From the IMG/VR virus record IMGVR_UViG_3300007541_000267, positions 1-21,851 of that record: a DNA stretch of 21,851 nt, one strand, 5' to 3'. A program made the translations under genes and the position numbers. This document shows, piece by piece, positions 2,347 through 14,500 of this stretch (position 1 is its first letter; every line of letters begins with the position of its first letter). The notes below the pieces were generated by a model. That model was given only the letters and a program-made list of their open reading frames with translations, searched no databases and was not told where the DNA came from. This DNA comes from a virus.

Positions 2347-3351
2347 ATGGCCGACTACGCCATCGGGCTGTCGTTCCACAAGGCGCACCGGACGATCGTC
2401 CGCGCCGTGGATCTGACCCCGCCCGCCCGCTACTTCGCCACCCGCGATAGCGCCGGCTACATCACCCTGCCCATCCTCGAGACCGGCAAGTCCTACGTCG
2501 AAATCCAGGGCATCACCAACACCAGCTTCCAGATCAACGACAACAACCAGGAGTTCCGCCTCCTGGGCGATGACGGCTGGATGGACTCCGTGATCACTGG
2601 GTCCTCGGTGCAAGCCTCGGTGACCGCCTACTTCCTCAAGGACGCCGAAATCCCCGCCGGTGGCGTCGATCCCGTCTTCCGCGGCAACTACGACGAGGGC
2701 TTCGACCTCATCCAGAAGGCCCGCTACAACAAGGACTACGAGATCTACGTCGAGTTCCTCAAGGAGCTGGGCCAGGCCGACGGCAGCACCGGCAACTTCA
2801 TCTACGACTTCACCGGCTTCAACGCCGTGGTGCAGAACTACTCGGAGAACCTCACCGCCGAGGGCCTCACCGAGATCTCCTTCGACCTGATGTCCCGGGC
2901 CCGCCCCGTCTTCGGTCGCTACGACGCCGGCGCCAGCCGCATCAGCTTCGGCAACGTCCAGTCCTCGCTGCTCTTCCTGGTGAACGGCACCCGCCAGGCC
3001 GCCACGAGCCCGGCCGACAACGCCGACAGCGTGGCCGTGGGCGACGACATCACCGTCACCTACACCAGCGACGGCACCGCCCCGCTCACCCAGCTCTCCC
3101 TGGGCCAGAGCGACGGCTCCGGCTTCAGCCTCGAGAACGCCTCCACCGGCGCCAAAGTGCCCGCCACGGTCTCCCTGGCCTCCAACGTGGTCACCATCAA
3201 CCCGAGCGCGAACCTGGCCGCCGGCACCATCTTCCGCCTCGTCATCGCCGACGGCGCCATCACCCAGGCCGTCGACGCCTCCGGGACCGCTTCCGCTTCG
3301 GGCATCAAACGCCCCCTGCAGGGCCTCACCACCACCTTCAAGACCGCTTGA
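2347..3351 (+). CDS. Major tail (tube) protein with C-terminal Ig-like domain
   Basis: This 334-residue protein should form the stacked rings of the tail tube. AAGGAG at 2333-2338, 8 nt before the ATG, is the strongest ribosome binding site in the area, as expected for an abundant protein. Residues 1 to about 205 look like the tube domain (for example GKSYVEIQGITNTSFQIND and GNFIYDFTGFNAVVQNYSEN). From about residue 211 a separate beta-sandwich follows, with SPADNADSVAVGDDITVTYT and FRLVIADGAI; this matches the bacterial Ig-like fold of the Big_5/SbsA type. Such domains usually decorate the outside of the tube and may bind cell-surface sugars. An intrinsic terminator lies 25 nt after the stop. 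The tube call follows from position, size and the added Ig domain; the tube half was not matched to a named family. Confidence 0.8.
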   Translation: MADYAIGLSFHKAHRTIVRAVDLTPPARYFATRDSAGYITLPILETGKSYVEIQGITNTSFQINDNNQEFRLLGDDGWMDSVITGSSVQASVTAYFLKDAEIPAGGVDPVFRGNYDEGFDLIQKARYNKDYEIYVEFLKELGQADGSTGNFIYDFTGFNAVVQNYSENLTAEGLTEISFDLMSRARPVFGRYDAGASRISFGNVQSSLLFLVNGTRQAATSPADNADSVAVGDDITVTYTSDGTAPLTQLSLGQSDGSGFSLENASTGAKVPATVSLASNVVTINPSANLAAGTIFRLVIADGAITQAVDASGTASASGIKRPLQGLTTTFKTA

Positions 3352-3375
3352 TCCCCGAGCTCGGTCCCTTCACCT

Positions 3376-3397
3376 GGCCCCTTCCCGGGGCCTTTTT
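3376..3397 (+). terminator. Intrinsic terminator after the major tail gene
   Basis: A 6-bp all G/C stem, GGCCCC (3376-3381) and GGGGCC (3387-3392), with loop TTCCC, is followed directly by five T residues (3393-3397). It lies 25 nt after the major tail protein stop and before the first ATG of the next gene. It would reduce transcription into the chaperone and tape measure genes, or give the major tail gene a stable mRNA end. It also marks a sharp fall in GC content. Confidence 0.8.
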
Positions 3398-3407
3398 ATT
3401 GGCACAA

Positions 3408-3650
3408 ATGCAGCACGATCTTCTTATAGACCCGATCAACACGGTCTTTGCTATTAACTGTCTGGAAGAGGGCGACACACTCCACTGCGGCGCCCTCTAC
3501 CTGGAACCCCTCGTCCAGAGCCATCGTATCCGCTTAGCGTATGACGGCGCTAGTCTGGAGGTGGAAATTCCCCCCGAGCTCGTCAACCAGCCAACGCCGT
3601 ATCAGGCTTGGCAGGTTGTACTCCCTATCCACAATGAGCAAGTACGCTAG
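3408..3650 (+). CDS. Hypothetical 80-residue protein before tail chaperones
   Basis: I do not recognise this small protein. It has an acidic, mixed alpha/beta sequence with LLIDPINTVFAINCLEEGDT near the start and RLAYDGASLEVEIPPELV in the middle, with no membrane segment or metal-binding motif. The ATG at 3408 was chosen because it lies after the terminator hairpin. A TTG at 3348 in the same frame would overlap the tail protein stop and translate through the hairpin, which is less likely. No ribosome binding site is obvious at 3408. The stop overlaps the start of the chaperone gene by 17 bases. Codon use is mixed, unlike the C-ending codons just upstream. It may belong to the tail chaperone group by position. 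Confidence 0.55.
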   Translation: MQHDLLIDPINTVFAINCLEEGDTLHCGALYLEPLVQSHRIRLAYDGASLEVEIPPELVNQPTPYQAWQVVLPIHNEQVR

Positions 3651-4146
3651 TCTTTTATTCTCTCCTGAAGAGTACTACGAAATCGGACCCTTCAGGTTCC
3701 CTATTTACCATGATCTTGTGCCAGGTGAAGCCCGAGGCATAGAGGAGTTGGCACGAAAACAGTCTAGGCATACGTTTAACTCAATCAAGCTAGCAAAGAC
3801 AATCGCTAAAGACAAAAACATTACCACTCAAGAAGCCATTGATCTACTCGGTAGCGGAACCGACGACAACCAAGACATCTTCTTTGAGTACGCTGCAGAA
3901 TTAGAACAGCTTCAGCAAATGAGCGTTGGCGCTGTAGAGCATAAAGTTAAACACGTCACGTTGTTTATGAAGTTTCGAGGAGAAGTGAAGCTGCCAAAAG
4001 CAAAAGACTATACAAAATTAGAAGACTGGACAGAAGAAGACACTGAAAGCATACCCAATAAAATGCTGAACAAAATAACTGAGTTTATATCTTGGGAGCA
4101 AAATGGTTGGCCCAAAGATAACGAGGGAAACGAAGAGGCGGAGTAA
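3634..4146 (+). CDS. Tail assembly chaperone, gpG-like (short product)
   Basis: This 170-residue, highly charged protein sits directly before the tape measure gene, where siphoviruses carry the G and G-T tail assembly chaperones. These coat the tape measure protein before the tube forms around it and are not part of the finished virion. Residues 30-60 are basic and helical (ARKQSRHTFNSIKLAKTIAK), and the middle contains a long helical stretch (FFEYAAELEQLQQMSVGAVE). The end is acidic (DNEGNEEAE). The start at ATG 3634 (MSKYASLLF) avoids the 110-base overlap that an ATG at 3541 would need. A slippery heptamer lies 13 bases before the stop codon, so a fraction of ribosomes should shift to the T frame. 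The family call rests on position, size and the frameshift arrangement. Confidence 0.75.
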   Translation: MSKYASLLFSPEEYYEIGPFRFPIYHDLVPGEARGIEELARKQSRHTFNSIKLAKTIAKDKNITTQEAIDLLGSGTDDNQDIFFEYAAELEQLQQMSVGAVEHKVKHVTLFMKFRGEVKLPKAKDYTKLEDWTEEDTESIPNKMLNKITEFISWEQNGWPKDNEGNEEAE

Positions 4147-4162
4147 CCAAGAAAGTTACTCC
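4125..4162 (+). promoter_or_regulatory. Programmed -1 ribosomal frameshift signal (GGGAAAC + hairpin)
   Basis: GGGAAAC at 4125-4131 is in the correct register of the G frame (G GGA AAC), the same type as the lambda GGGAAAG slip site. After an 8-nt spacer, GGAGTAAC (4140-4147) pairs perfectly with GTTACTCC (4155-4162) around a 7-nt loop. The loop bases CAAGA (4148-4152) could also pair with TCTTG (4178-4182), which would give a pseudoknot. The G stop codon lies inside the stem. The -1 frame is closed by TAA at 4119-4121 and then stays open to 4601, so slippage can only work in a window of about 22 bases, and the heptamer is inside it. Confidence 0.88.
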
Positions 4163-4601
4163 AGAGAGTACTCTTAGTCTTGCAGAAACCATACTAAAAA
4201 CACCAGTCACAGACTGGGATGAGCTTTACCTACGCATAAAGCTATCCGCTCTAGGGCACGAGTTTGGTGCGCATAAGTTTCTGAGGACTCCTGTAGGCGT
4301 AATAAGACTACTACTCTCCCGCATCAATAACGAAGAACAGCGCCTAGCTAATATCCACTCTATTACCGCAGCCAGCTTAGCTCATGTAGTTGTGAGCGTC
4401 GCTCATGGATTGTCAGGCTCTAAAAAGCCTGCACCTCAGATAAAGCCGAAAGACTTTTTGCCATTTCCTAACTGGGACGAAGCTAATAGTAACAGTAAAG
4501 AAACGGCGGATGAAGCAACACGCTTTGTCCTGAGCCAACTAATACAAAAGCGTCGCATACCAGTTCACGTTTTTGTAGCGCTCATGCAAAGCGGAACCTG
4601 A
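4131..4601 (+). CDS. T part of the G-T tail assembly chaperone fusion
   Basis: This frame has no ATG near its beginning and is expected only as the end of a fusion made by -1 slippage: join(3634..4131, 4131..4601), 322 residues, of which 156 come from this part. The T segment starts with the basic linker RRGGVTKK, then a helical domain (TDWDELYLRIKLSALGHEF), a helix with NNEEQRLANIHSITAA, and the ending region APQIKPKDFLPFPNWDEA, an element I associate with siphovirus T-type chaperones. In lambda, G binds the tape measure and T recruits tube subunits; the same division of work is inferred here. A GTG at 4392 could in theory start a 69-residue product but would cut the domain. The stop is 55 bases before the tape measure gene. 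Confidence 0.8.
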   Translation, partial: RRGGVTKKVTPESTLSLAETILKTPVTDWDELYLRIKLSALGHEFGAHKFLRTPVGVIRLLLSRINNEEQRLANIHSITAASLAHVVVSVAHGLSGSKKPAPQIKPKDFLPFPNWDEANSNSKETADEATRFVLSQLIQKRRIPVHVFVALMQSGT

Positions 4602-4656: not shown

Positions 4657-7600
4657 ATGGCTGGACAGGAATACAGGGTAAGAATCACAGCCGAAACAAA
4701 GAGTGCTACCGACAAGATAGATAGCGTACAGAATAGCCTTAACAATCTAACAGACAAAGCGCATAATATCAAACTAAACATGGACGCTAATGCCGTCCGT
4801 GATAGCGCGCGCCATGCAGAAGATATAGCGAAAAACCTCAAAGCCAGTAAAGCCTCTATCCAAGAAGCCAGCGGCTTCAGCATCGTCTCCGGCGACTCGC
4901 TCTCGCGTGCGACCGCCCTTGCTTCGACGTTCTACGGTATCCGCAAGGATATCGGAGGCATCAACGCGGATCTGGGCAAAGCCACCCAGAAGACGAATCT
5001 GTCCGAGTTCATGCGGACAAATCAGTTCCTAGACCGCGTCCTGGAAAATTCGCGCAGCCGTACCCGCGAGATCGTAGAGACCTACAAGAACATCCGCGAG
5101 CTACCGGGAACGGGAGAAGTTCTCGGTCCTGTTGAGAATTTCGCCCGGGTCAAAGCGTGGGAGACCTACGGTGATCAAATCGCCGGAGCAACAGTACAGG
5201 CTGCGAAAGACTCCGTAGTCGCCAGTGCCCAGAAGACAAAAGACTTTTTCTACGGAGACATCGTCAAAGAGTTCAACGTCGGGCTTAATACCACAATCGA
5301 TAATCTCGCCAGGATCGGCCTGGCGATTCAAGGCGTACAGCTCTTAGTCGGCCCCCTGGCAGCCGCTTGGTCTGCGGCATTCGACGCCATCATCGGCCAG
5401 AACATCAGGCTCGAACAGACCATTCTCTCAACCCAGACGACTCTAGCCTCTACGGGCAGAGTCATCGATCAAGCCACGGGCTTCGAGCTGACCGACCCCC
5501 TACAGAAGATCCAAGCCCTCGAGGGCGGAGTGCGCCAAGCGATCGACAACATCCGCATTCGCTCTCTGGATCTCGCTGGTGTGACATCCCAGCAGATCAT
5601 CGAGATCTTCGGTGTTGTCGCCACATCGATCAGCCAGGTCAACGGCACATTAAAGGACGCTGAAGATCTTGCTATTAGCTTCACCGCCGCTCTCGGTACA
5701 CTCGGTATCCCCTTCTTCCAGGCTCGTCAAGAAATAGGTTCGATCCTTGGAGGTTATATCACTGAAGATTCTCTACTTGCGAAGAGACTTCAAATAAGCA
5801 ATCAAGACATCGCCAAAGCCAAAAGTAGTGTTGATGGTGTTGTCGGCTATCTACAAAAGAAACTCGAAACTGCAGTAGCCGGCCAAGCCATTCAAGCCAG
5901 AGGTTTTGCTGGTGTTACTTCTAACATCCAAGAAATCTTTGAAGTCCTGGCTCAGAACATAGGTGCGCCCCTGCTGGAGCCCCTGGTCGGTGGGCTGACT
6001 GTGATCTACGAGACCCTGAAGAGGGTCCAGGGTGTTGTCACCGAGGTCGGTAAGTTCCTTTCAACAACCATCGCCAGCACCATCACAGGCATAGCCAATA
6101 TCTTCAAAAGCACCCGTCTAGCCGAGGGCGCTCGCAAACTTCTAGACAGCATTGCGGCTCCTTACAAACAACTCGCCTTTGCCATCGAGCTCGGTCTCGG
6201 TGGTAAAGGCCAGAACCTACTGCAGCAATGGTTGAACGGAACTGCAAAAATCCCCCCGGTCATGGAGGGAATTGTCAATGCCCTCCGAAGCTTCGGTAAC
6301 TTTCTGAAGCTTCAACTGGAGTTGATTACCCAGCCTATTCAACAGCTTATCGATCAAACTCGCGACCTCGCCGGAGGCGGGGCCGGTATCGCGCAGCGCG
6401 TAGCAAGAATTGCCTCCATTCCATTCGGCAACTTTATTGAGTTCACCCAGACATTCACAATGGGCTGGGATACCATTACAACAACAATAGCCGAAGCAAC
6501 AAGAGTTCTCGCCAAGTTTGTCGTCACCCTGGGCAAACTCAAAATCACAGAGTTTACAGCGCAGATTCGAGCTGCTGCTGCCGTGTTTGAGGTATTCGGC
6601 AGTGTCCTGCTGGGCCGACTGAATCTGGCCATATCGTTCTTCGATACTTTCGCGAATGTAGCCGGGTCTGAACTGGCCAAGTTCACGGTATCACTACTGG
6701 CAATCAACAAGCTAATCAATCAAACAGACTTCTTCGGAATAAAAGGAATAGCTATATGGGCTGTACAGACGAGACAGATATTCGGACAGCTCATCGGCGA
6801 TGCCAAGCTCTTTGTCAAAGGCTTCAAAGACGCCGGCAACATATCTGGCTTTACGGATAATGTCGCAGCGAGTTACTCTAAACTCTTTTCTCTGCAAGCG
6901 CAGAGCAAGAATCCAGTCATCGCCAACCAGGCACAGATCGCTGCCACCGAGCAGGCCATCAAAGGGCTTAACACCCAGATGGCAGCCCAGGGGGTGGGCG
7001 CCGCCAAGATGGCGGAGTACAGCAAAGAACTGACCACAGCGCAACAACGGCTGGTTGAACTGCGTAAGACCCAGGAATCCTTCACCCGAGCTCAGCGTGC
7101 GACCGCCGGCGTGCAAATGCTGTTCGGCGGCGGTAAGGAAATCGAGGCGGCCCGCGAAGCGGCACGCCAGGCCTCCGTTCTCGCAAGCGGTGCCGCCACA
7201 GCTCGCGGGCTCGAAGGCGCTCTCGAAGCCCTTCGAATCAAGCTGGGCATGACCAAGGAGGAGTTTAGATCCCTCGGGGGTGCCGCCAAAGCCGCAGGTA
7301 AATCCATCCAGACCTTCATTACTACAACAGCGCTGATCAACATCGGTTTCACCGCTCTTTCTTTGGGAATCGCAGCCGGTATTTCCTGGTGGCAGCAGTA
7401 CGAAGAACGGGTCAAGGCAGCGCGCCTAGAAACCATGAAGATGGCTTCCGTCAACAAGATCCTCAACAGTGGCTGGAGCTCCACCATCCAGGCAGCGGAG
7501 GGCGGTGACGTCGCTTCTCAACTCAAGCTCGACAACCTGCGTAGCGAAGCCCAAGCAGCCATATCAATCCAACAGGACAAACAAGCAAAGTTAGCGGAAC

Positions 7601-10600
7601 AATACAAAAAGAAAAATGATGAACTCTACAAAACCAAACAAGCTATAGCACGGCTAGAAAAGGCCGGAGCTGACTATTCAAATGACTACGACGCTTATCT
7701 AAACAAGCGTGTCCGCCAAGAGAAAGAGCTGCAAGGCATAAAAGCACAGCAGCTGAAAATCGACGAAAATCTGCTCAAAGCACGCAGGGCTGCTCAGCTT
7801 CTGGTTGACGAGCAAAATCAAGTCAAAGATTTCCAAATTCTGTCTGAACGTCGTCTAGACTTAGAAAGCAAGATTAAGCAGGTTAGAGAAGACTTCACCA
7901 AAGAAGTCACCGATAAAGAGTTTCAGTCCCGAATCGATGTTCTTAGTACGGAACAACAGATTCGCCGCGAAATGATCGAACAAGAGAAAAGCGCTCTAGC
8001 CTCGCGCTTGCAACTCCTCAGTACCAATTCCAGTGATCAAGAGGCGAAAGGCCTCAACTATCTACAGAAGTACAAGATTGCACTACTTGATGCGGTTCAG
8101 TCAGAGGAGCAAAGGCGAACTGAGCTTCAGATTAAACAAGATCAGATGCGAAAAGCGATAGAAGACTACGCCTTCAAAATGGCACGCGAAAAAATCCGCC
8201 TGGAGAAAGAACTTGGAGGCTATCAGAAGCAAATGGAGCAGTACAAGAACAAGCAAACAGACATAAGAGTACAGAAAGAAGTCAACGCCGCACGGCAAAC
8301 TGCACTCCTACGCGGACCAAGCTACGAACCTATCAATACTGAGCAGCAGCAAGCTTTTGTCAACGCCTCCCAGCGTTATGGCATTGATCATCGCGACGCC
8401 TTCGCAATGCTCAACATCTTGGGCAAAGCCATGCTTCAGCTCTCCGGGGCGGAAACTCCAGATGTTGCCATCGGAAAACTGAAAGGTATGCTCGACGCCC
8501 GATCAGCGCGAGGCATGAATAACAGCATGGAACAGCTTGTCCAAGATTACATAACAGGACCACAAGTTAAGGATGTGAGCAAACTTGTAGGTTCACTACG
8601 TCAGTACGCAGTCAAAGCTTTCAACACAAGCCGCTGGCTCAGCCCCCGCGACACATCTCAGCTTGCCTCACCTGACCTCAACATCGACTACGCCAGCATG
8701 GAGCGGCGCATGACCGAGGCCGAAGCCGCGACCGTAGAAGCCACCAAGCGCTACCAAGCTGCTGTAGCTGCGGGGGACAAAGCGCGGCTTGAACAGCTGC
8801 GCAAGGAGATGCAGGATGCTTCAACGATTACTGACCTCAAGATCGACTACACATCCGAGCTTGAAAAAGCTTCCGAGAACCTCAAGAACACCGCGCTATC
8901 CGTCTCCAATCTCGGTGACTCAAGTCTAGTCCTCGAGACCGAACTCAACAAAGCGACGCAGACATTCCGAGCACGTCTCCGCGGCGTGCTAAGGGAAGCT
9001 CTACAGTCCGGTGCCGTAAAAGAGAGTGCGATCAACACTATTGCTAGTGGCAAAAGCGCTGCATTCGTCGATCAACTTCCGATTGACGCTGCGACTAAGA
9101 CGACAATTAAAGATATGCTCACTGCTTTTAACGCAGCTGTTGACCGTATTCGCCGGGTCGCGCCTCAAATCAACCAGCTTAATCAACTCAGCACTTTAAG
9201 CTCTTCTACTGAGCGTTCTTTTGGTCGCTCCGCCACGGAAGAGCGTATCCAAGCGCTACTCGCAGGTCCACTGGACGCATACCGAGACGTTGCACTCGGG
9301 CTGAACGCCCAAAATGGCTATTCTCTCAACAATGAGATCTCTAAAATACGTATCAACCAAGGCCTTGAGCAGATCCGAGTGCTGCAGTCGCTTCCTTTCA
9401 AGCTGACCGGGCAACAGCTCGAAGCATTCAACCAGGCTGTGGAGGGGTCGACTGCTCGTCAAATCGCTCAGGCTCAAGCACTCGATGCCGTAAACACGGC
9501 CGTCTCCAACTTCACGGCCCGCGCTGCGCTTGCCGAAAAGAGCTCAGGCATCCTGGCCAGTGCCTACAAAAATCTGGCTGCGGATGCATTGAAAGGAGGC
9601 ACAAGCCTCAAAGACGCCATCCAGACGTTCACCGACAACGTCAGCTCAAACTTCGTTGACCTCTTCCTCGAGTACGCGATGAAGCCCATCGAGGATCAGC
9701 TCAGAGGCACATTCAGCAAGCTTTTCGGTGTCGAAGATGCACAGAAAGAAGCAGCCAAGCGCCTCCAGGAATCCGCCAGTGCGCTGAACGATGCCGCCGC
9801 TGCTCTCAAAAACAGCGCCACCGTTCCAGGCGGCCAAGGCGGCCCCGACCTCCCACAAGACTTACTGAATCAACGTGCCATCGCCCCTGCTCAGATGACA
9901 ATGGCCAATATCCAAGCAATGCCAGTTGAAAGCTTGGACTTCGTTCTGGAAGATGCCTTCAAGGGCTTCGGCGACACCTTCCTCGCCTTCGGGGAGGACA
10001 CCAAGAAAGCAGGCGAGGCCGGCAAGCAAGGCTTCGGCAAATTCCTCGGCGCCATGACCGGCGTCGCCACCGGCGCCCTGGCCATCACCGGCGCCATCCA
10101 GGCGATGCAGGACTCGAACAACGGCACCTACGGCACCTTGATGGGCATCGCCGGCATTCTCGGCGGCCTGGGCGCCATCACCGGTGGCTTCGCCGCTCTC
10201 GGGAAACGCGCCGCTGGCGGCCCTGTTAACGCCCGCAACCCCTACGTGGTGGGCGAGATCGGACCTGAGCTGTTCGTACCCGATACGAACGGCACGATCA
10301 TCCCGAATAACAGGTTGACCGAGAATCGGATGTACCTAGAGCAGATGAACAGCGGGTCCACCGGCTCCCCCCTTGAGATGGGAGCGGAGGCGGACGGAGG
10401 GATGGCCGCAGCGACGCGTGCTGCAATTAGGGAAAGCAGTCGCCTGCAAGAAACAAGATTACAAGTCTTCAGTCAGCAACAAGCGATGGAACGTCGCTAC
10501 GAACGCGAGCGGATAGAAAACATGAGTGCAGCACCGGGAGAGCTGAACATTAAATACGAGTCACAGGTCATCAACAATGTCGAATACGTAACCAAGGATC

Positions 10601-10704
10601 AAGCCGAGCGTATGGCGGCACAGTCTGCAATCCGTGGGCGCGAACTTGCTCTAAGCTCATTGCAGAACAGCGTCAAGACTCGTAAGCAAGTGGGGATGGC
10701 TTGA
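4657..10704 (+). CDS. Tail tape measure protein
   Basis: At 2015 residues this is by far the largest gene, and it directly follows the chaperones. GGAG at 4647-4650 lies 6 nt before the ATG. Visible parts in order: helical, polar N-terminus (residues 3-68); a hydrophobic segment near 215-247 (GVQLLVGPLAAAWSAAF); a helical stretch near 738-820; a strongly hydrophobic segment at 886-912 (ALINIGFTALSLGIAAGISW); a long K/E/Q-rich coiled coil near 960-1218; a second helical half; a Gly/Ala-rich hydrophobic region near 1791-1850; and a conserved ending, GGPVNARNPYVVGEIGPELF, near 1853-1872. The ending is typical of tape measure C-termini. The protein sets tail length; at about 1.5 angstroms per helical residue this would suggest a tail near 300 nm, an estimate only. 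No peptidase or lysozyme motif was recognised. Base composition changes abruptly several times along the gene. Confidence 0.93.
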   Translation: MAGQEYRVRITAETKSATDKIDSVQNSLNNLTDKAHNIKLNMDANAVRDSARHAEDIAKNLKASKASIQEASGFSIVSGDSLSRATALASTFYGIRKDIGGINADLGKATQKTNLSEFMRTNQFLDRVLENSRSRTREIVETYKNIRELPGTGEVLGPVENFARVKAWETYGDQIAGATVQAAKDSVVASAQKTKDFFYGDIVKEFNVGLNTTIDNLARIGLAIQGVQLLVGPLAAAWSAAFDAIIGQNIRLEQTILSTQTTLASTGRVIDQATGFELTDPLQKIQALEGGVRQAIDNIRIRSLDLAGVTSQQIIEIFGVVATSISQVNGTLKDAEDLAISFTAALGTLGIPFFQARQEIGSILGGYITEDSLLAKRLQISNQDIAKAKSSVDGVVGYLQKKLETAVAGQAIQARGFAGVTSNIQEIFEVLAQNIGAPLLEPLVGGLTVIYETLKRVQGVVTEVGKFLSTTIASTITGIANIFKSTRLAEGARKLLDSIAAPYKQLAFAIELGLGGKGQNLLQQWLNGTAKIPPVMEGIVNALRSFGNFLKLQLELITQPIQQLIDQTRDLAGGGAGIAQRVARIASIPFGNFIEFTQTFTMGWDTITTTIAEATRVLAKFVVTLGKLKITEFTAQIRAAAAVFEVFGSVLLGRLNLAISFFDTFANVAGSELAKFTVSLLAINKLINQTDFFGIKGIAIWAVQTRQIFGQLIGDAKLFVKGFKDAGNISGFTDNVAASYSKLFSLQAQSKNPVIANQAQIAATEQAIKGLNTQMAAQGVGAAKMAEYSKELTTAQQRLVELRKTQESFTRAQRATAGVQMLFGGGKEIEAAREAARQASVLASGAATARGLEGALEALRIKLGMTKEEFRSLGGAAKAAGKSIQTFITTTALINIGFTALSLGIAAGISWWQQYEERVKAARLETMKMASVNKILNSGWSSTIQAAEGGDVASQLKLDNLRSEAQAAISIQQDKQAKLAEQYKKKNDELYKTKQAIARLEKAGADYSNDYDAYLNKRVRQEKELQGIKAQQLKIDENLLKARRAAQLLVDEQNQVKDFQILSERRLDLESKIKQVREDFTKEVTDKEFQSRIDVLSTEQQIRREMIEQEKSALASRLQLLSTNSSDQEAKGLNYLQKYKIALLDAVQSEEQRRTELQIKQDQMRKAIEDYAFKMAREKIRLEKELGGYQKQMEQYKNKQTDIRVQKEVNAARQTALLRGPSYEPINTEQQQAFVNASQRYGIDHRDAFAMLNILGKAMLQLSGAETPDVAIGKLKGMLDARSARGMNNSMEQLVQDYITGPQVKDVSKLVGSLRQYAVKAFNTSRWLSPRDTSQLASPDLNIDYASMERRMTEAEAATVEATKRYQAAVAAGDKARLEQLRKEMQDASTITDLKIDYTSELEKASENLKNTALSVSNLGDSSLVLETELNKATQTFRARLRGVLREALQSGAVKESAINTIASGKSAAFVDQLPIDAATKTTIKDMLTAFNAAVDRIRRVAPQINQLNQLSTLSSSTERSFGRSATEERIQALLAGPLDAYRDVALGLNAQNGYSLNNEISKIRINQGLEQIRVLQSLPFKLTGQQLEAFNQAVEGSTARQIAQAQALDAVNTAVSNFTARAALAEKSSGILASAYKNLAADALKGGTSLKDAIQTFTDNVSSNFVDLFLEYAMKPIEDQLRGTFSKLFGVEDAQKEAAKRLQESASALNDAAAALKNSATVPGGQGGPDLPQDLLNQRAIAPAQMTMANIQAMPVESLDFVLEDAFKGFGDTFLAFGEDTKKAGEAGKQGFGKFLGAMTGVATGALAITGAIQAMQDSNNGTYGTLMGIAGILGGLGAITGGFAALGKRAAGGPVNARNPYVVGEIGPELFVPDTNGTIIPNNRLTENRMYLEQMNSGSTGSPLEMGAEADGGMAAATRAAIRESSRLQETRLQVFSQQQAMERRYERERIENMSAAPGELNIKYESQVINNVEYVTKDQAERMAAQSAIRGRELALSSLQNSVKTRKQVGMA

Positions 10705-11527: not shown

Positions 11528-14500
11528 GCCTTCTACCGCAGGACCGCTACATCGCAGAACTCCTCGGGCTAACCGAGGACGAAATGAGTTGGTACAAGGC
11601 AGAGGTGCAGCGCCGCGCGATGGAAGGCCCAAAGCCGGCAGTGATAGCTGGAACGGAAACACTTGCGATTATTAGCCTCGTACTGACCGTACTAAGTGTT
11701 GGTTTAACAGTTGTCGCTAGCTTCTTAGTCCCAAAACCACCACAACCAACTGAACGTGGCAGGCTTACCACTCGTCAACGGCAAGGCGACACCTTGCAGG
11801 TGCCGTCAGCATTTGCACCAACATACGGCTTCGAGGCTGTCCAGGATATTGCCCCGCTCGGCGACCCGATCCCGCTGATCTACACGAAGCGTGAATTCAT
11901 CAATGGGCAGTGGTACGGCGGCACCCGCGTCAACACCCCGCTGCTGTGGAGCCAGATCTGGTCCCTAGGTGGCAACCAAATGCTTCGCGCAGTGTTCTTG
12001 GTCTCCGAGGGCGAGATCGAAAGCATTCACCCTCAGTCTTTCGCCATTGGCAACAACACCCTTGGCGCTTATTCGTTTGAGGGCAGCTCACAGCGCATCG
12101 CGATCTACAGCGTGCCCAACGGTGGCCGGATGGCAATCGGCAACTACCTATCAGGATCCACTACGGATCTCGGTGCAGGCGGCGGTTACGGACCTGACAT
12201 CTTCCGTGCTGACATTGGTTCCAACGACTTCCAGCCGGTCTTCTGCGGCGCCTACAAACCGAGCACGTCCACGTCGTTCGGCCTCTATGCACCCATGGCC
12301 AACGGGCTCGGGTACAGGATCAACCCACGCATCAGGCCGCTGCGCACCTTGCAAGTTGTCAGCAATTCCTACGAGGCCGACGATGACGCGCAAGCAACCG
12401 CAGAAGCGTGGAAATACAAATACTGCTACAGCAGTAAATCTGGCATTATTGCCACATCCAAGGGCAGTACGCCACGCACTTTGATCGACCTCGAAGTGGG
12501 TGATACGTTCACCTACATGCTGAGCTCTAAGAGTGATGCACTCTTCGCTGGCTTAAAAAACCCTGCTATCAAAGTAGGTTCTGTCAACAGCGACAACAAA
12601 GTCGGATCGCAAGATGGCGAAGAAACTCTGGTTGCAGTTGGTCAATCTGTGGCAGGCCGACAGAAGCAATACGACTCCAACCTCCGTGAGGGTGAGCTGT
12701 ATAAAGTCGGTTCTTGCCTTGCCATTCTTACATCACGCGATCCGTTGTTTGTCAGCGAGATTGATTATTACCCGGACGTCAATAATGAAGCCGGCCCCGT
12801 ATCACTTGATCCAGATGTAATCGCCTCGCGAGGTCGCACTGCGTACTACTTTTTCAAGGTTGTGCGGGCTGGTACAATCGGTATTGCGGGCGCTGACATT
12901 ACTGACACGCGATTCTTCGATAACCCCAACTCACGCTTCATCTACCCAGCAGAGAGTGCAGCGTTCAATGCCTCCAAGCCATGGGAATTCCAGACGCCAG
13001 GGCTTGACTATGCGGCAGGCGAAATTGGTGAGCGTTACTACACTGCATCATCGTTCCCACAGCTTTATCGCTGCGCCCTTGGAAGCGTTCGCCTGAATCG
13101 TCCGACGCGCTATTTCGAGATTGGTATTCGCAGCACAGTCGCCATGCAAGTGCAAGGGCTGTGCAACTTTGGCGATGTCCCATCGGAAACGCCCACATTT
13201 GACCGTGGCGTTGTCAGTGTGGTCACGCGCACTGCTGGCCCTACGACAGGATTGGTCAACGGCACGTATGTTGCCCAGCGCGATATTGGAGATGGCACTG
13301 GCTTTGAATACACTATTGTCGTAAGCGGGAATGCAATTACGTCTGAAACAATTACCGAATCTGGCATTAACTATGACACTGGAGCCACATTCGGCATCAA
13401 CATTCCAAACACTGGTGGTGGCACCAGCGCTCTTTCTTATCGCATTGACGAAGTAGTAAGTGTACAATCGGGCACGCAGCTCACGTCAGGCTACGAAGCA
13501 ATCAACTGGAAGTCTGCCGACGCCTTAGACGGCGAGCCCGTAGAAAGCAAGCTCACCAATACTATTTTCAGCTCTGGCACTGTCACATCGCCAGAAAAAC
13601 GTTACAGCTTCTTCCGTGTATCCCTTCGCTCGGATGTTTCTGACGAGTCGGCATTTGTTGGCACAAGCAATGTCATATTCTGCGTGGGCAGCGCTAAGGA
13701 AGTGCCCGCGTTCAACTATCTGCGCTTTGCGATGGACGGCGACGCCACATGGGAAGTGCGGGTGGAGCCAATTTCCAGTTGGGAGCTACGCAATCAGATC
13801 TTTCAGGTGTTCCTGCTTGACGCGAGTGAATCACCTTCGATCCTGCAAACTCGCTTGCGGTTTGCCTTCGGCAGCATCTGGGCCAAGGGTTATTTCTTGG
13901 ATACACGCGACTTCGACAACCTGTTTGACATGCAAGGCTTGCGGCCTCAGCAGGAAATTGGCATCAGTTGGACCGAGGGCGTGTATAGCAGCCCCACAGA
14001 CGGTACATACATTGATCGCTACGCCCGTGCCGCAGAATTCTTCGTCTACGACGAGATCTCGACAAGCTGTGGTTCCGCACCCGAGCACGAGATTACCTAC
14101 GTCAACGTCATGCAGCCCAATGCAACGGCGCCGCAATATGACAACCTCTGCTTAATCGGAATGAATGTGCGTGCCACGCAAGAGTGGTCGCAGTTCTCGC
14201 AGCTATCCGCGTATGTCACGGCTGGCATCAAGGTTGATCGCTTCTCGGGTGTCAACGAAGCCACGCATCTATTCCCGGAAATACTCTATGACTTCATGTT
14301 GAACACTCGCTACGGTCTCGGTAATGAAATCAGTCCAGAGCAGATTGATGTTGCATCGTTCGCTGCTGCCGCCCAGTTCTGCTACGACAATCGCTTTTTT
14401 TACGTAGGTCCCAAGCTGACCAACGTCAACTGGCGCCAGTGGGCAGCGGACATCGCAGCCACGCACTGCCTTTTGCTGATCGAGCGCGGCGGCGTTTTCT

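Follow-up and report, generated by a model that had tools for sequence, protein, structure and literature searches.

How a reading frame with no usable start codon comes to be translated is the question raised by the tail gene region of the virus record analysed here, a stretch of 21,851 bases (the window) carrying head-completion and tail genes. All features discussed lie on its forward strand. The first of the two overlapping frames, G, opens with ATG at 3634 and ends with TAA at 4144-4146 (3634-4146, 170 aa); it is regarded as the unshifted product of a putative tail assembly chaperone gene on the grounds of the ORF, the alignment of 49 representative homologues and its position between a tail protein and the tape measure. 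Near the 3' end of its 170 codons stands the heptamer GGGAAAC (4125-4131), which is read in frame as GA[G GGA AAC], that is as G_GGA_AAC in the X_XXY_YYZ register. The -1 frame is open after TAA at 4119-4121 and is closed by TGA at 4599-4601, and its T part (4131-4601) comprises 156 codons after the slip, with 48 aligned homologues and a sub-threshold match to Pfam PF06223. There is no ATG in it until codon 151, and the first GTG or TTG is codon 87 (GTG 4392), where a mechanical ORF call (4392-4601) begins. A first-pass annotation had reported the heptamer in exact register and the -1 frame open as far as 4601 with no usable ATG, and had warned that a simple gene call drops the first 87 codons of T; coordinates and frames agree with it on all these points. 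It had also described a spacer of 8 nt (4132-4139) and a perfect 8-bp hairpin (4140-4162), in which GGAGTAAC (4140-4147) forms eight Watson-Crick pairs with GTTACTCC (4155-4162) around the 7-nt loop CAAGAAA (4148-4154). These elements are present, but the G stop, assigned by that annotation to the loop, lies inside the 5' arm of the stem.

The answer that very probably holds is a recoding of the lambda G/GT tail-assembly-chaperone type, in which a -1 slip at GGGAAAC makes a G-T fusion, probably with the aid of the hairpin. Most ribosomes would finish G at the stop at 4144 and release the 170-aa protein. In a minority, the P-site tRNA would shift back by one base from GGA to GGG and the A-site tRNA from AAC to AAA, a slippage probably favoured by the hairpin 8 nt downstream, and the slipped ribosomes would read the -1 frame to 4601 to give a fusion of 322 aa, the only form in which T is predicted to be expressed. 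After tandem slippage the junction is expected to run ...WPKDNEGN and then RRGGVTKKVTPE... (...WPKDNEGN/RRGGVTKK...). In phage lambda the tape measure is bound by many copies of gpG and a few of gpGT, whose T domain brings in the tube protein (PMC5009743). By analogy, many G and few GT molecules would coat the tape measure of the present phage, with T recruiting the tail-tube subunit. A pair of this class would be expected to yield GT at a few per cent of the amount of G and to leave neither protein in the virion.

The surrounding genes fit this assignment. Two genes upstream of G there is a probable major tail (tube) protein with a C-terminal Ig-like domain (2347-3351; PHROG major tail protein, E 0.007; Pfam Big_5, 1.3e-7), and where the sequence of relatives extends far enough on that side, a homologue precedes G in nearly all of them. 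It is followed by a 100-aa gene of unassigned function (3348-3650), which is conserved in the GGGAAA clade with 44-80% identity in most relatives and was not found in the loci resembling that of Synechococcus phage S-CBS4. Downstream of T lies a tape measure protein of 2015 aa (4657-10704; PHROG tape measure, 1e-6), which over 24% of its N-terminal 1000 aa is 44% identical to tape measure proteins from phages of Nodularia and Planktothrix. The order is thus tail protein, 100-aa gene, G, T and tape measure. It is a general rule that tail length amounts to 0.15 nm per residue of the tape measure, by which a tail of near 300 nm would be predicted.

Relatives were gathered by alignment-based scans of IMG/VR, one genome contig and phage S-CBS4; only by such a search were they reached, as neither annotated phages nor IMG/VR gave any match to the window T part alone. 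The collection comprises 152 distinct G genes in 49 lineages at no more than 85% identity. In all 152 an in-register slippery heptamer lies within the overlap of G and the -1 frame: AAAAAAA in 65, GGGAAAC in 57, GGGAAAG in 22, AAAAAAC in four, AAAAAAG in two, GGGAAAA in one, and both AAAAAAA and CCCAAAG in one further gene (L259), although these genes are kin and the counts are not independent. Different heptamers kept in one register in two deep clades are what selection for slipping predicts. In all complete cases the T frame stays open for a further 140-155 codons after G has stopped, and its protein sequence is conserved. The proposal that a -1 frameshift joins tail chaperones G and T is therefore well borne out by the heptamers, the open and conserved T frame and the synteny; its authors had named loss of the heptamer and stem in close relatives that keep both frames as contrary evidence, and the heptamer is lost in none of the 152.

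The same comparison bears on three other explanations of the overlap. Any single metagenome contig may hold an indel, so that the change of frame could be an assembly or sequencing error or the mark of a decayed gene; an identical frame relation in 152 distinct G genes on independent contigs and in the isolate S-CBS4 leaves this explanation with a negligible probability. T could otherwise be a separate gene with an internal start, at GTG 4392 or elsewhere, and its overlap with G incidental. A GTG-started ORF does exist at 4392-4601 and gp033 of S-CBS4 is annotated as such a truncated ORF, but conserved T sequence sets in some 60 codons upstream of GTG 4392, and in nearly all representatives no start precedes it (the conserved DW motif is codon 27 after the slip, and upstream of it a start codon is likewise missing in nearly all), and a separate gene is contradicted by the invariance of the heptamer, which makes it highly improbable. 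The frame could finally be set by slippage of the polymerase and not of the ribosome, which is conceivable at the A7 of the S-CBS4-like clade; GGGAAAC holds no long homopolymer, the XXXYYYZ register is kept and this exact heptamer is found in 57 of the 152 genes, so that transcriptional slippage, too, has very little in its favour.

Heptamers of this kind are rare. In the forward genes of the window there are five in-register XXXYYYZ heptamers (Y being A or T) in 6,794 codons, and among 35 representative G genes no in-register GGG/AAA-AAA-N heptamer occurs outside the site in 6,287 codons. The glycine codon at the slip site is GGA in all 31 representatives with GGGAAA heptamers, against 55 of 292 glycine codons (19%) elsewhere in those genes, and the base preceding GGA stays G in representatives across differing codons (GAG, GCG, GGG, CCG and GTG). 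Further in-register XXXYYYZ heptamers of the window stand at 11628, 11730, 12555 and 16655, in long tail genes.

Phage S-CBS4 offers a true homologue of the pair. Its gp032 and gp033 (locus L013, 5001-5971) show a G with 31% identity, an in-register AAAAAAA, a T homologue and the tape measure next to it; it differs from the window in the A7 heptamer, in a weak hairpin and in being annotated as two truncated hypothetical proteins. The GenBank starts are 5070 for gp032 and 5750 for gp033, while the conserved G start is at 5001 and T begins at 5504, which means that 23 codons of G and 82 codons of T are missing from the annotation and the fusion is unannotated.

Frameshifting of the lambda G-T type is widely conserved in long-tailed phages (PMC5009743). 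With lambda G/GT (gpG, gpGT) the window shares the order tail protein, G, T, tape measure, a T in the -1 frame without a start, a G_GGA_AAN heptamer close to where G ends and a T weakly similar to the Pfam minor tail protein T. It differs from lambda in a heptamer ending with AAC instead of AAG, in the extra 100-aa gene between tail protein and G, in a G without detectable similarity to named chaperone families and in a G stop placed within a hairpin stem. At G-T frameshifts of archaeal tailed viruses G_GGA_AAC and G_GGA_AAG have been reported, and that of lambda uses G_GGA_AAG (PMC5009743, PMC7618472). A system cited to PMC5009743 has the same heptamer set, GGGAAAC included, in unrelated hosts, and is likened to the present one by the heptamer only. 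The gp17.5/gp17.5* pair of phage SPP1, in which a -1 shift likewise precedes the tape measure gene, is a functional analogue whose heptamer, UUUUUUC, is unlike GGGAAAC (PMC6316719).

Similarity searches add little to the gene order. The window T scores 23.5 bits against PF06223 (Phage_tail_T, minor tail protein T), below the cut-off of 25.9, and this family is matched by seven of 48 T parts at E<=0.1 (best E 7.8e-5). For G no significant match to a named chaperone family was obtained in Pfam, PHROG or PDB by sequence or fold, for T no credible PDB match by sequence or fold search, and at the slip site no Rfam family; a search of BFVD returned for T one unnamed Caudovirales protein (6.7e-4), which is uninformative on function. 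As G matches no named family and neither G nor T a solved fold, the filing of the pair as lambda-type rests on gene order, frame relation, slip site and weak T homology. In E. coli, A_AAC is reported to slip less readily than A_AAG when it stands in the A site (PMC5009743), and this weakness, together with a G free of any named family, a T match under the cut-off and a patchy hairpin, speaks against the lambda-type reading. Nevertheless, judged from sequence, it is near certain that the frameshift of the window is real and functional, and it appears ordinary in kind.

The role of the hairpin is a separate matter. Stimulatory hairpins usually stand 5-9 nt behind the slip site (PMC7618472), and the 8-nt spacer of the window fits this range. 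Perfect hairpins of at least 8 bp with a spacer of 5-9 and a loop of 4-9 arise in 0.07% of dinucleotide shuffles and are equally rare along the window (0.07% of its positions, or three places). Ranked against local control places, the hairpin has an energy percentile of 0.015 or 0.09, according to the span that is allowed, and the folding energy of the slip region is less striking, being moderately unusual at z -1.5. Among representatives the top 5% relative to control places in the same genes is reached by 6/35 or 10/49, three to four times the expectation. Conservation of the stem in related phages, which the first-pass annotation had proposed as a check, is not what was found: the hairpin is missing in most relatives, many representatives have none at all and none is present in L009 or L098, while it is strong in two lineages with short-tailed G and in scattered others.

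The same annotation had considered an H-type pseudoknot possible, and one might see in such a structure, formed by stem and loop, the main stimulator. The pairing itself exists, as CAAGA (4148-4152) is complementary to TCTTG (4178-4182) over 5 bp. A loop-tail match of this length is, however, expected by chance in 3-9% of shuffles, loop 1 would have zero length, with stem 1 directly abutting stem 2 on the 5' side, a sterically unfavourable arrangement, and of five other relatives with a hairpin that were tested, L213 alone has a match longer than 3 nt (5 nt), which the other four lack. The pseudoknot is thus unsupported, and its part as main stimulator is improbable. With regard to an upstream Shine-Dalgarno stimulator, the window has no SD-like tetramer within 18 nt of the site, and any such tetramer is present in 16 of 49 representatives.

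The two hairpin lineages consist of the window with L002 and L014 (support 95/83) and of L035 with L075 (99/99); further members were sought and none was found. All five have short G tails, with the stop 7-25 nt past the heptamer against 37-55 nt in the majority of GGGAAA-clade relatives, and all five carry analogous strong hairpins, of differing sequence, close behind the heptamer. Two other short-tailed G genes (L003, L068) have no strong hairpin. Over all representatives the distance of the stop is not significantly related to hairpin strength (Spearman 0.13, p 0.47), and the comparison of short-tailed G genes with the rest gives p 0.06, so the association of a short G tail with a strong hairpin is no more than suggestive. 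The same applies to the contrast in hairpin strength between heptamers ending in AAC and those ending in AAG (p 0.07-0.12), which is confounded by ancestry. It is simplest to regard the heptamer as the core signal and hairpins as enhancers confined to particular lineages. A more far-reaching version, possible but rather unlikely, holds that the heptamer alone suffices and that hairpins were gained separately where the G tail shortened and the stop came to lie in or beside the hairpin (window, L002 and L014; L035 and L075), so that hairpin and neighbouring stop codon may jointly set the G:GT ratio.

It can be said that the finding supplies the predicted form of the missing long chaperone of a large and mostly uncultured phage family that includes a phage of Synechococcus. 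The case of gp033, cut by its first 82 T codons, illustrates that automatic gene finders miss such fusions. The 152 slip sites, with and without hairpins, are a natural test of the contribution of hairpins to bacterial -1 frameshifting, and the same set also tests why the A-site codon met most often in the GGGAAA clade is A_AAC, which is deemed weak in E. coli.

Several minor observations accompany these results. Two more distant loci (L011 and L012, on contigs >110 kb), which stand outside the 152, have at 3590-3740 a T-like -1 frame without any XXXYYYZ heptamer, and their overlap holds CAG GGG GAG (G_GGG_GAG), a possible non-standard slip site. In L005, L015, L024 and similar loci a stretch near GAGTTCAGCCC[AT]CCCC just 3' of the heptamer is strongly conserved where the frames overlap; dual coding likely explains it, and a role at the nucleotide level is also possible. 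The 4-kb contig that carries the G-T pair of L174 is catalogued with a Proteobacteria genome (isolate AM_0268), in whose bin it probably landed as a piece of phage DNA. The homologues in phages of Synechococcus, Nodularia and Planktothrix suggest that the host of the phage is a cyanobacterium. Along the window from 2347 through 4601 and onward, third-position GC is 0.95 in the tail-protein gene, 0.46 in G, 0.40 in T and about 0.6 from the tape measure on. A drop in total GC at G is seen as well in L002, L014, L056, L098 and L109 (0.59-0.63 upstream, 0.44-0.47 in G), and since it is common to close relatives it appears to be an old feature and no fresh junction.
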